From NCBI RefSeq assembly GCF_000756655.1, contig NZ_ARXU01000006.1:1-64000 (forward strand): 64,000 nt of DNA, read 5' to 3'. Below the pieces are notes generated by a model, which made no database searches, had not been told where the DNA came from, and saw nothing but the letters and a program-made list of their open reading frames with translations. The stretch comes from Alcanivorax jadensis T9. Lineage in GTDB: Bacteria > Pseudomonadota > Gammaproteobacteria > Pseudomonadales > Alcanivoracaceae. Numbering within the stretch: position 1 is the first letter of the stretch; the number at the start of each line of letters is the position of its first letter. The translations under genes were made by a program, and so were the position numbers. Shown here in pieces: positions 6,146-8,352 of this stretch.

Positions 6146-6766
6146 ATGAGAAAAGTGAAATTTGCCATGGTGGCCCTGTTCGCTGCACTACTCGCGGCCT
6201 GTGCCACCGGCTACCACGACACCCGTATGGTCAACACCCAGACCGGCGTAGAAAAAGAACCCCAAGGTCCCTACCAGTCACTGGTGGTGGGGGTTCTGGT
6301 AGAGCATGAACTGCGTGCCCACCTGGAAAACGCCATTGTCGCCAAGTTTGCCGAACAGGGTATCCAGGCCACCGCCGCCCACACGGTTTTTGGTGACAAA
6401 GGGATTGAAGGTAAAAGCCGTGACTATTTGGCGCAACGCATGAAGGAAAATAGCTTCGACAGCGCCCTGGCGATCCACCTGGAAGAGCAGCGCACCGAAA
6501 CCCTTGAAGTCAAAGGTGACCCGGGGACGGCCGTACCGGTCGCCGGCACCATGACCATGCGCCCTCAGGTGTTCAGCGACGACTTTTTCGTGAATGAGGA
6601 CATCTATGTGGTTCGGCTGGACCTCTGGGATGTAGACCAGCAAGCGATTATCTGGCAAGGCAACACCGTCAGCTTCAACACCGGCGGCTTCAAGGGCCTG
6701 GAAAAGGGCGCAGGCCACTTCGCCCAGGTCATCACCAACGCCATCGGCAAGGCCGATATCTTCTGA
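6146..6766 (+). CDS. Putative lipoprotein of unknown function
   Basis: A 206-residue protein with a type II signal peptide and lipobox LAAC (Cys at residue 19), so it should be a lipid-anchored envelope protein. The residue after Cys is Ala, which favours the outer membrane. The ribosome site is GAGGATGG. It follows the DUF1302 gene by 60 bases and ends at a terminator, so the two form a likely operon. I do not recognise the mature domain; it is a mixed alpha/beta-looking sequence with one long charged stretch. Confidence 0.75.
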   Translation: MRKVKFAMVALFAALLAACATGYHDTRMVNTQTGVEKEPQGPYQSLVVGVLVEHELRAHLENAIVAKFAEQGIQATAAHTVFGDKGIEGKSRDYLAQRMKENSFDSALAIHLEEQRTETLEVKGDPGTAVPVAGTMTMRPQVFSDDFFVNEDIYVVRLDLWDVDQQAIIWQGNTVSFNTGGFKGLEKGAGHFAQVITNAIGKADIF

Positions 6767-6800
6767 TCCTGTTTTCTCCTTGATTGTCTCCACCTTCCTT

Positions 6801-6824
6801 GCCCACTTCGGTGGGCATTTTTTT
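6801..6824 (+). terminator. Rho-independent terminator after the lipoprotein gene
   Basis: GCCCAC-ttcg-GTGGGC with a stable tetraloop, followed by ATTTTTTT. Confidence 0.9.
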
Positions 6825-6897
6825 GCCTTGTCCTGTCACGATCCTGTCATGCCGACCCGGCATATTGACCACCTATCAAGGAGAGAGGCTCGCCCTC

Positions 6898-6926
6898 TTG
6901 CTTCTGACGGGCGCCATCGCTAGGCT
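6898..6926 (+). promoter_or_regulatory. Candidate sigma-70 promoter for the aromatic leader/DAHP synthase operon
   Basis: TTGCTT, a 17-base spacer, then TAGGCT, placed about 30 bases before the leader peptide start. Each hexamer is only a moderate match; position is the main support. Confidence 0.35.
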
Positions 6927-6954
6927 TGAGAACTGAATTCAAAGAGATTTCACC

Positions 6955-7065
6955 ATGAACGCAGCCCTGCACAATCACGGCATCAATGCAGACCGCAACC
7001 CGGTCGGCACGGTTGTGCCCGCTGCCTTCTATTATGGGTATTGGTTTAGCCGCTCGCGCGCCTGA
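6955..7065 (+). CDS. Aromatic amino-acid leader peptide upstream of DAHP synthase
   Basis: A 36-residue ORF with a ribosome site (AAAGAG, 7 bases before ATG). It ends MNAALHN...PAAFYYGYWFSRSRA, with six of seven consecutive residues aromatic (Phe25, Tyr26, Tyr27, Tyr29, Trp30, Phe31). All three end products of the shikimate pathway are represented. Its stop codon sits inside a stem, and a terminator follows before the DAHP synthase gene. This is the layout of ribosome-stalling attenuators such as trp and phe leaders. Function is inferred from codon content and position. Confidence 0.8.
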   Translation: MNAALHNHGINADRNPVGTVVPAAFYYGYWFSRSRA

Positions 7066-7143
7066 CCGTTACCCAGGCGCGCCCGCTACGGGACGCCTGC
7101 CGAATCATGAAAACCCCGGTCGGTATCCCGCCCGGGGTTTTTT
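7056..7143 (+). promoter_or_regulatory. Candidate transcription attenuator for DAHP synthase
   Basis: Three hairpins can be drawn. Stem 1:2 pairs 7056-7064 with 7074-7082 (GCGCGCCTG/CAGGCGCGC, 9 bp). Stem 2:3 pairs 7074-7079 with 7094-7099 (CAGGCG/CGCCTG), with an inner CCCG-cta-CGGG. These two exclude one another. A terminator follows at 7114-7143 (CCCCGG...CCGGGG then TTTTTT). A ribosome stalled on the aromatic codons (7027-7047) would free segment 2. I do not see segment 3 overlapping the terminator stem, so the coupling step is unresolved. Confidence 0.6.
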
Positions 7144-7189
7144 ATTGCCCGATAAATACCGAAACACCGCACCACAGAGGACAAACACC

Positions 7190-7285
7190 ATGTATCGATA
7201 TAGCCAGCACCACAAAGAATCGCGATTTAGCCAATGGCAAAGCCCGCTCCAGCGAACACTACGATCGAATCACGCGCGACGGTAA
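7190..7285 (+). CDS. Second small ORF between the attenuator and DAHP synthase
   Basis: A 31-residue ORF starting MYRYSQHHKESRFSQWQ, with ribosome site AGAGGA 8-9 bases before the ATG. It ends 26 bases before the DAHP synthase start. It is basic and also contains Tyr, Phe and Trp codons near its start (Y2, Y4, F13, W16), so it may be a second regulatory uORF or a small protein. No signal peptide or membrane segment is present. I do not recognise it. Confidence 0.4.
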   Translation: MYRYSQHHKESRFSQWQSPLQRTLRSNHARR

Positions 7286-7311
7286 TGCGCACAGAACAGT
7301 AAGGAACGACC

Positions 7312-8352
7312 ATGCAACAGACACAGAGCACCACTACCCCCGCCGACACCAGTCCGCGCCGCAGCTTGCCGCTGCCCTCCCCCACCGTGCTGCGTGATCG
7401 CCTGCCGGTGGACGTCCGGCTGGCAGCACAGATTCAGGCACATCGCCAAACCGTACGCGATATTCTCAATGGCACCGATGACCGCCTGCTTGTTATTACT
7501 GGCCCCTGCTCGCTTCACGACCCGAAAGCAGCGCTGGAATACGGCCATCGTCTGAGCGAACTGTCCCGTCAGCTGGACGACAAGGTCTTCCTGGTAATGC
7601 GCGCCTACGTGGAAAAGCCACGCACCACCGTGGGGTGGAAAGGCATGCTCTACGACCCACACCTGGACGGCAGCAACGATATCGCCACCGGGCTGAACGT
7701 ATCCCGCCACCTGTTGCTGGACCTGGCACGGCTGGGACTGCCCCTGGCCACCGAACTGTTGCACCCCATGGCCGCCGACTACCTGGGCGACCTGCTCAGC
7801 TGGGCAGCCATCGGCGCACGCACCACCGAATCCCAGATCCACCGGGAAATGGTCAGCGGCCTGTCCATGCCCGTGGGCTTCAAGAACGGCACCGATGGCA
7901 GCATTGATGTAGCGAGTGACGCCATGGGCGCCGCCGAGCATCCCCACACGCATCTTGGCATCGATGACAACGGCCACAGCGCCCTGCTACAGACAGCGGG
8001 CAACCCGGATACCCACCTGGTACTGCGCGGCGGGCATCAAGGCCCCAACTACGATGCCGACAGCATTCGCACTGCCGTCGACGCCCTGCAGGCTAAAGGC
8101 CGCAACCCGCGACTGATCGTGGACTGCAGCCACGCCAACAGTGGCAAAGATCCACTCAAGCAACCGGAGGTGCTGAACGATCTGCTTGAACAGCGGCGCA
8201 AGGGTGAAAAACATATCGCCGGTGTCATGCTGGAAAGCCATCTTCAGGACGGCAAACAGCCCCTGCAGAAACCCCTGCAGTACGGCCTCTCCATCACCGA
8301 TGGTTGCCTGGGTTGGGACAGGACGGAACAGTTACTCTGTGGTATCGACTAG
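7312..8352 (+). CDS. 3-deoxy-7-phosphoheptulonate (DAHP) synthase, class I (AroF/G/H type)
   Basis: A 346-residue enzyme of normal length for the metal-dependent type I-alpha family. It condenses phosphoenolpyruvate and erythrose-4-phosphate, the first step of the shikimate pathway. Recognisable motifs are GPCSLHDPKAALEYGHRL (about residue 65), RAYVEKPRTTVGWKG (about 97), GARTTESQ.HREM (about 170) and GFKNGTDGS (about 187). Ribosome site GTAAGGAAC. Which paralogue (Phe-, Tyr- or Trp-sensitive) cannot be read here; the upstream leader with Phe, Tyr and Trp codons suggests transcriptional control by all three. Confidence 0.93.
   Translation: MQQTQSTTTPADTSPRRSLPLPSPTVLRDRLPVDVRLAAQIQAHRQTVRDILNGTDDRLLVITGPCSLHDPKAALEYGHRLSELSRQLDDKVFLVMRAYVEKPRTTVGWKGMLYDPHLDGSNDIATGLNVSRHLLLDLARLGLPLATELLHPMAADYLGDLLSWAAIGARTTESQIHREMVSGLSMPVGFKNGTDGSIDVASDAMGAAEHPHTHLGIDDNGHSALLQTAGNPDTHLVLRGGHQGPNYDADSIRTAVDALQAKGRNPRLIVDCSHANSGKDPLKQPEVLNDLLEQRRKGEKHIAGVMLESHLQDGKQPLQKPLQYGLSITDGCLGWDRTEQLLCGID

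Follow-up and report, generated by a model that had tools for sequence, protein, structure and literature searches.

A probable ribosome-mediated attenuator reading three aromatic amino acids ahead of DAHP synthase in Alcanivorax jadensis and its relatives

The DNA considered here, called the window, is a stretch of 64,000 nucleotides (nt) from Alcanivorax jadensis T9 (contig NZ_ARXU01000006.1, positions 1 to 64,000, forward strand), in which the gene for a type I 3-deoxy-D-arabino-heptulosonate 7-phosphate (DAHP) synthase is preceded by a short open reading frame (ORF) rich in aromatic codons, leader 1. We consider it very likely that this region is a ribosome-mediated transcription attenuator of the synthase gene, reading the supply of Phe, Tyr and Trp jointly as an OR gate. 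Its computed basis consists of the conservation of the peptide, the linkage to the gene, alternative helices with compensation across families, and a predicted effect of ribosome position on those helices. From these we infer translation, stalling, termination, read-through, the kinetics of the switch and the identity of the terminated form with the transcripts of the small RNA (sRNA) P15.

The peptide of leader 1 is MNAALHNHGINADRNPVGTVVPAAFYYGYWFSRSRA, and its ATG lies 8 nt downstream of the end of an AAAGAG that resembles a Shine-Dalgarno sequence, so that the ORF has both a start and a ribosome site from which it would be translated. The block FYYGYWF, encoded at 7027-7047, strings together codons for the amino acids that the controlled pathway makes; among the 455 ATG-started ORFs of 15-60 residues in the six frames of the window, only this one holds at least six aromatic residues of all three kinds within seven positions. 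The synthase gene (Pfam DAHP_synth_1, E 9e-80) starts 246 nt beyond the end of leader 1, with an intrinsic terminator ahead of it. A first-pass annotation made from the letters of the stretch had proposed the 36-residue leader with its ribosome site and aromatic block, the T-run terminator and the nature of the gene, and all three hold. Upstream, a terminator-like site at 6800-6817 behind the preceding ORF comes before leader 1. The leader peptides tried against Pfam and NCBIfam matched no family. A second DAHP synthase in the same genome (locus L249) is about 52-54% identical to that of the window, and a scan for aromatic leaders in the 600 nt upstream of it found none.

The same arrangement recurs widely among relatives. 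A match to the synthase was found in 56 of 57 related genomes, and the leader is present in 29 of the 30 loci fetched, window included, where the synthases are at least 57% identical to that of the window; locus L030, with a synthase 53% identical, has no leader. With an RNA model built from 28 of the leader-bearing loci, matches at E up to 1e-3 were obtained in 104 out of 390 genomes from the order, many of the matches being weak, and 63 of the 70 loci examined from these (15 of which repeat loci of the first set, window included) carry an aromatic leader together with a DAHP synthase. The remaining seven matches (L092-L097 and L099), all at E 1e-6 or weaker, have no synthase and were taken as chance. 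A scan of named genomes with a DNA pattern of the leader gave at least 119 loci; the 80 listed come mainly from Pseudomonas and Stutzerimonas, and also from Alcanivorax, Halotalea, Denitrificimonas and two further Gammaproteobacteria. A DAHP synthase lies 3' of the leader in 113 of the 119 (76 of the 80 listed); in the other six the sequence extends only 26-552 nt past the leader.

Taken together, 203 elements were found at 206 synthase loci; the three loci without one are L030, L209 (where there is little sequence) and L067, whose leader is present and whose terminator was missed by the script. Phe, Tyr and Trp all occur within the densest ten leader residues of every one of the 143 non-redundant elements, window included, which had been preselected for at least three aromatic residues of two kinds within seven positions. 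The claim of an attenuator-like leader with the three amino acids in one block before DAHP synthase therefore extends across families. The leaders vary in type by family and keep all three amino acids throughout: the window's family and f21 have FYYGYWFSRSRA or close variants, f37 has SYWYWFSPGVPGG or FYGYWFSHGVPLADA, f20 has FFWWFGYGFYFSQNPGRP and f39 has YWYFGYGYFSQEP. Since the leaders of f21 are identical to those at named Pseudomonas loci, we treat it as the Pseudomonas family.

Elsewhere in the class, one best synthase locus was scanned in each of 29 families and two were flagged, of which L230 has no T-run and is not leader-like. In L235, from another order, a GTG-started leader with RFYRWYYF, and so with all three aromatic amino acids, and an intrinsic terminator stand before a DAHP synthase (minus strand, about 2600-2700), behind a gene whose product has a GroEL-like C-terminus; it gave no P15 match at E up to 0.01.

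Between the sensor codons and the end of the T-run, the RNA of the window can be divided into segments A to F that form five predicted helices (Table 1), with A:B known from the window fold alone. The 122 nt from 7024 to 7145 fold better than 200 of 200 dinucleotide shuffles (z -4.1). The antiterminator D:E has 12 pairs and two mismatches, and can be drawn by eye in L066 (GGGTTGCC with GGCAACCC), L070 (CGTGCTGCC with GGCAGCACG), L028 (CGGACGCC with GGCGTCCG) and L079 (AGACTGCC with GGCAGTCT). An earlier candidate, GACCG (about 7064-7068) with CGGTC, was rejected because GACCG is missing in L005 and others, and CCGA:TCGG alone was superseded by the longer helix. The first-pass annotation had drawn an antiterminator that left the terminator stem untouched and supposed an unusual switch. 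This was mistaken, as D:E draws in the loop of the terminator hairpin together with the inner part of each arm, which is the usual his-like layout; the two mutually exclusive stems it described are probably B:C and C:D, with D:E lying further downstream.

That these helices are maintained across families was examined by a swap test, in which the energy of each matched pairing was compared with that of segments exchanged between lineages over 20,000 permutations. The sample comprised 30 of 33 cluster representatives of less than 85% identity; L029, L062 and L070, whose terminators had been wrongly cut by the segmentation script, were left out here and in the ribosome folding, and the script-made cuts of the others may be a base or two off. 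None of the 20,000 permutations reached the matched energy for D:E (-19.3 matched, -16.1 swapped, z -7.1), B:C (-23.2 and -19.1, z -6.8) or C:D (-17.8 and -15.4, z -4.7), and with the three excluded loci restored the result was likewise 0 of 20,000 for all three helices. Two control pairings that the model does not predict were weak (B:E z -1.5, run both ways; C:E z +1.3). Upstream of related genes the peptide is conserved, and the stems show compensation across families.

The second computation placed a ribosome on the leader, with the first free base 13 nt past the start of the A-site codon, and compared a ribosome stalled at one of the last aromatic codons with one standing on the stop codon. 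As in a his-type switch, where a stall should give B:C and D:E and its absence C:D and E:F, 25 of 30 representatives, and 106 of 140 elements, gained more than one pair of D:E on stalling, with one representative changing in the opposite direction; of C:D, 27 of 30 lost more than one pair and one gained. Together with the swap test, these predictions link ribosome position to the terminator through mutually exclusive helices. For the window, a ribosome stalled at Tyr 7033, Tyr 7039 or Trp 7042 yields a B:C of 9 pairs, and one at Phe 7045 yields 7 pairs of B:C mixed with 4 of C:D; once the RNA has grown to 7130, all the Tyr, Trp and Phe stalls yield a 12-pair D:E. With the ribosome at the stop, C:D is favoured from 7098 to 7125, followed by C:D and E:F at 7138, and without a ribosome the RNA likewise ends as C:D and E:F at 7138. 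Folding with and without a ribosome at the sensor codons, which had been proposed as a check, thus predicts that all three kinds of stall favour antitermination.

In the mechanism that we propose, a ribosome would translate leader 1 while RNA polymerase transcribes, and shortage of any one of the three charged transfer RNAs would stall it in codons 7027-7047. Its leading edge would then free segment B, or nearly so, for B:C, leaving D free to form D:E (7089-7102 with 7117-7130); the terminator would come too late and the gene would be read. With all three plentiful, the ribosome would reach the UGA at 7063 and cover B, whereupon C:D would form, E would be free for F and transcription would end at the T-run. 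The terminated product would be the RNA known in Pseudomonas as sRNA P15, and the read-through RNA would carry a further ORF, leader 2 (7190-7285).

Table 1. Coordinates of the leader region and controlled gene in the window, with predicted helix energies
Feature	Position	Strand	Details
Leader 1 Shine-Dalgarno-like AAAGAG	6941..6946	+	Basis: sequence
Leader 1 ORF, 36 residues, ending ...AAFYYGYWFSRSRA*	6955..7065	+	Basis: ORF list; C-terminal block kept in relatives
Match to Rfam RF00627 (Pseudomonas sRNA P15)	7023..7138	+	59.9 bits, E 1.1e-11, below gathering score 70
Sensor codons Phe-Tyr-Tyr-Gly-Tyr-Trp-Phe	7027..7047	+	Basis: sequence, ORF rarity, conservation
Segment A (GGGTATTGGTT)	7036..7046	+	Pairs with B region (A:B) in 39-nt fold 7036-7074, -17.5 kcal/mol
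Segment B (GCGCGCCTG), end of leader 1 ORF	7056..7064	+	B:C -18.7 kcal/mol; swap test z -6.8
Segment C (CAGGCGCGCCCG)	7074..7085	+	Partner B or D; C:D -15.0 kcal/mol
Segment D (CGGGACGCCTGCCG)	7089..7102	+	Partner C (predicted to lead to termination) or E (putative antiterminator, D:E -16.9 kcal/mol)
Segment E	7117..7130	+	Inner 5' arm, loop and inner 3' arm of terminator hairpin
Intrinsic terminator hairpin (E:F) and T-run	7109..7142	+	-22.0 kcal/mol
Leader 2 Shine-Dalgarno GAGGA	7177..7181	+	Basis: sequence
Leader 2 ORF, MYRYSQHHKESRFSQWQSPLQRTLRSNHARR*	7190..7285	+	Between terminator and synthase gene; second aromatic leader
Type I DAHP synthase, controlled gene	7312..8352	+	

A number of results weigh against this mechanism. 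At equilibrium with the RNA grown to 7138, the terminator of the window wins under the Tyr stalls (E:F 9 pairs, D:E 0), the Trp stall is mixed (E:F 6, D:E 4), and the terminator loses only under the Phe stall (E:F 1, D:E 10); conversely, with the ribosome at the stop, D:E is briefly favoured at 7130 (11-12 pairs). The window therefore behaves as a his-type switch under a stall only along the transcription path and not at full-length equilibrium, and a kinetic argument is needed; on these predictions the switch would be kinetic. Among the representatives, 5 of 30 fail to raise D:E by more than one pair on stalling, and the ribosome-free state is mixed, D:E exceeding C:D in 48 of 140 elements and in the mean of the 30. 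The control pairing B:D is borderline in the swap test (z -1.7, 1006 of 20,000). Covariation in alignment A1, drawn mostly from the window's own family, does not rise above shuffles (two pairs with a change on both sides, reached by 153 of 500), and the segments hardly vary there. Lastly, a promoter search gave no match from 6500 to 7500 of the window.

The RNA itself has been listed before under another description. At gathering threshold no Rfam family matches the window, and P15 (RF00627, gathering score 70 bits) emerges with a permissive threshold. The gathering score is reached by 10 of 20 sources tested, namely all eight of the f21 loci together with L020 and L026 of the window's family, and L001, L028, L061, L064, L070, L079, L081, L091, L098 and L100 fall below it; further scores under the threshold are 68.0 bits in Halotalea L149, 61.4 in Alcanivorax L134 and 40.2 in L066. 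The match runs from the sensor codons of the window to its terminator, whereas the Rfam entry is typed as a gene and states no leader peptide, link to DAHP synthase or switch. In the parts of the literature available to us, P15 is counted among the sRNAs of Livny et al. and has stood on Pseudomonas sRNA lists since at least 2008 (PMC2375449). From the loci compared, we suggest that P15 is the terminated form of leader 1 RNA.

Both the Rfam type and a 2017 study of P. fluorescens SBW25, in which P15 is among the noncoding RNAs of unknown function and its level is up without hfq (PMC5627042), would suit a stand-alone, trans-acting sRNA beside which the open frame and the adjoining gene are incidental. 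We regard this as very improbable, as peptide, terminator and synthase are linked in all the named loci long enough to show it and across families of differing RNA sequence, which speaks for a role in cis, and the RNA finishes in a terminator against which a conserved helix competes; an earlier paper had already suspected a cis element of the riboswitch kind (PMC2527527). A metabolite riboswitch or protein-bound leader using the same stems, with the ORF secondary, would account for the strong conservation of the segments after the ORF in the window's family. Across families, however, the stems change sequence and keep pairing while the aromatic codons are the constant part, and on these comparisons of sequence and pairing we give this explanation hardly any credence.

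A less distant alternative, though still a doubtful one, is that the attenuator serves mainly one or two amino acids, as is reported for the AroR attenuator of Corynebacterium glutamicum, and that its remaining aromatic codons persist for the sake of RNA structure or have too little effect to count. The DNA from GGG 7036 onward is nearly invariant among relatives, so codon choice may partly serve RNA structure, and the full-length fold of the window favours D:E more under the Phe stall than under a Tyr stall. Against this stand the presence of all three kinds in every non-redundant element, including divergent leaders such as FFWWFGYGFYF and YWYFGYGYF, and the prediction that before terminator completion Tyr, Trp and Phe stalls all yield D:E in the window.

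Joint attenuation at leader 1 is probably not the only control, and leader 2 is probably a further control point on the read-through RNA. The gap between terminator and gene falls into two classes, short (19-72 nt, 20 loci) and long (147-271 nt, 121 loci), with 2 of 143 not measured. A leader 2 ORF with a Shine-Dalgarno sequence and Phe, Tyr and Trp within 16 residues is present in 119 of the 121 long-gap loci, the exceptions being L012 (no Phe) and L107 (missed by the script, though found in another scan), and in none of the 20 short-gap loci. All 25 long-gap representatives have it, against 0.57 expected from dinucleotide shuffles. Its motif is MYRY...RFSQW in the window, YYRYDWRFS in Pseudomonas and YYGYWRFSE in f37. 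Among 49 Pseudomonas sequences, the ratio of nonsynonymous to synonymous polymorphism (pN/pS) is 0.70 over the whole ORF and 0.55 over codons 1-22, with 1.15 and 0.82 in the other frames; over the first 13 codons of 13 Alcanivorax sequences it is 0.97, which leaves coding constraint unsupported by this measure in the window's genus. The Phe-Ser codons TTT AGC occur in both leaders of the window, at 7045-7050 and 7226-7231, and hardly a letter of them differs across the leader 1 sequences of the families inspected or in the majority of leader 2 copies (CGATTTAGC).

How leader 2 might act was approached through folding and comparison. A terminator of its own was rejected, five T's following its start in just 4 of 120 loci, with all four runs beginning within its first 35 nt. 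Translational attenuation, in which leader 2 would hide the ribosome site of the synthase, was also rejected, since the predicted mean openness of the site changes little between no ribosome and a stalled one: 0.59 to 0.64 in 13 Alcanivorax sequences, 0.50 to 0.51 in 55 Pseudomonas, 0.45 to 0.52 in 16 from f37 and Halotalea and 0.48 to 0.55 in 36 others. Counted locus by locus, the rise exceeds 0.05 in 3 of 13, 6 of 55, 8 of 16 and 19 of 36 cases respectively, and a weak hiding effect may exist in part of the lineages.

A different structure is found 3' of the aromatic codons of leader 2 in f37 and Halotalea (16 distinct sequences) and in a group of Pseudomonas (35), where an H-type pseudoknot of near-fixed spacing lies about 12 nt past the start of the Phe codon of leader 2 (in those of L061-L077 that have leader 2, in L149 and, for example, in L050 and L053 of Pseudomonas). 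An example is CGGTCGG-(8)-GCCACC-T-CCGACCG-(10)-GGTGGC. Both stems show compensating changes, with z -7.9 (stem 1) and z -3.9 (stem 2) in swap tests; one position of stem 1 is unpaired in 31 of the 35 Pseudomonas sequences, and three positions of stem 2 are unpaired in 2-3 of the 16 from f37 and Halotalea. On inspection of the window's genus no counterpart of the pseudoknot was seen. Among the Pseudomonas loci inspected, L050 and L053 for example, CGAACAC recurs shortly 5' of the leader 2 stop, and a G+C-rich hairpin stands directly ahead of the synthase ribosome site.

These data raise a tandem arrangement, for and against which we see the case as evenly poised: DAHP synthase in much of the Pseudomonas and Alcanivorax order would be under two serial aromatic leaders, the first being the three-amino-acid transcription attenuator known as P15. 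The second, made only on read-through, would sense the same amino acids neither through a second intrinsic terminator nor, by folding, through simple hiding of the ribosome site, and in several lineages would use the conserved pseudoknot just 3' of its Trp-Arg-Phe codons. If true, such a tandem of leader peptides would be a new layout, and one that is well conserved. The attenuator, if confirmed, would likewise give a function to an RNA long carried on Pseudomonas sRNA lists, and would be a single cis element that sums Phe, Tyr and Trp where the aromatic pathway begins.

In the open-access literature searched, which did not extend to the texts of Livny 2006, Vitreschak 2004 or Neshat 2014, we recognised no paper that describes a DAHP synthase attenuator in this order or treats P15 as one. 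As far as these searches show, the three-amino-acid version, its spread in the order, the identity with P15, the antiterminator and the second leader are new within that literature.

Ribosome-mediated attenuation is a classical form of control, and an AroR attenuator of C. glutamicum aroF was reportedly described by Neshat et al. in 2014. In the his operon attenuator of enteric bacteria, alternative helices form a chain, and stalling of the ribosome promotes helices two and four at the expense of the terminator. The window element shares this chain in its predicted helices and would differ in reading three amino acids where his reads one; in its ribosome-free state the window fits the his pattern, whereas other families are mixed. 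The trp and pheA attenuators of Escherichia coli each read mainly one amino acid and control a terminal branch, whereas the window element stands before the first common step. With trp and pheA, both named in PMC11802643, it would share ribosome-mediated attenuation in aromatic biosynthesis. The contrast first drawn with attenuators biased to one amino acid needs qualifying, as a multi-aromatic leader is known at C. glutamicum aroF: in the accessible parts of two sources (PMC4046766, PMC11802643), AroR is a leader with Phe-Tyr-Phe before this DAHP synthase gene at which ribosome stalling raises transcription, and which is said in review to respond to Phe and not to Tyr. Consecutive aromatic codons ahead of DAHP synthase are thus common to both systems, but AroR is named in those parts with Phe and Tyr and no Trp, whereas the window element has all three.
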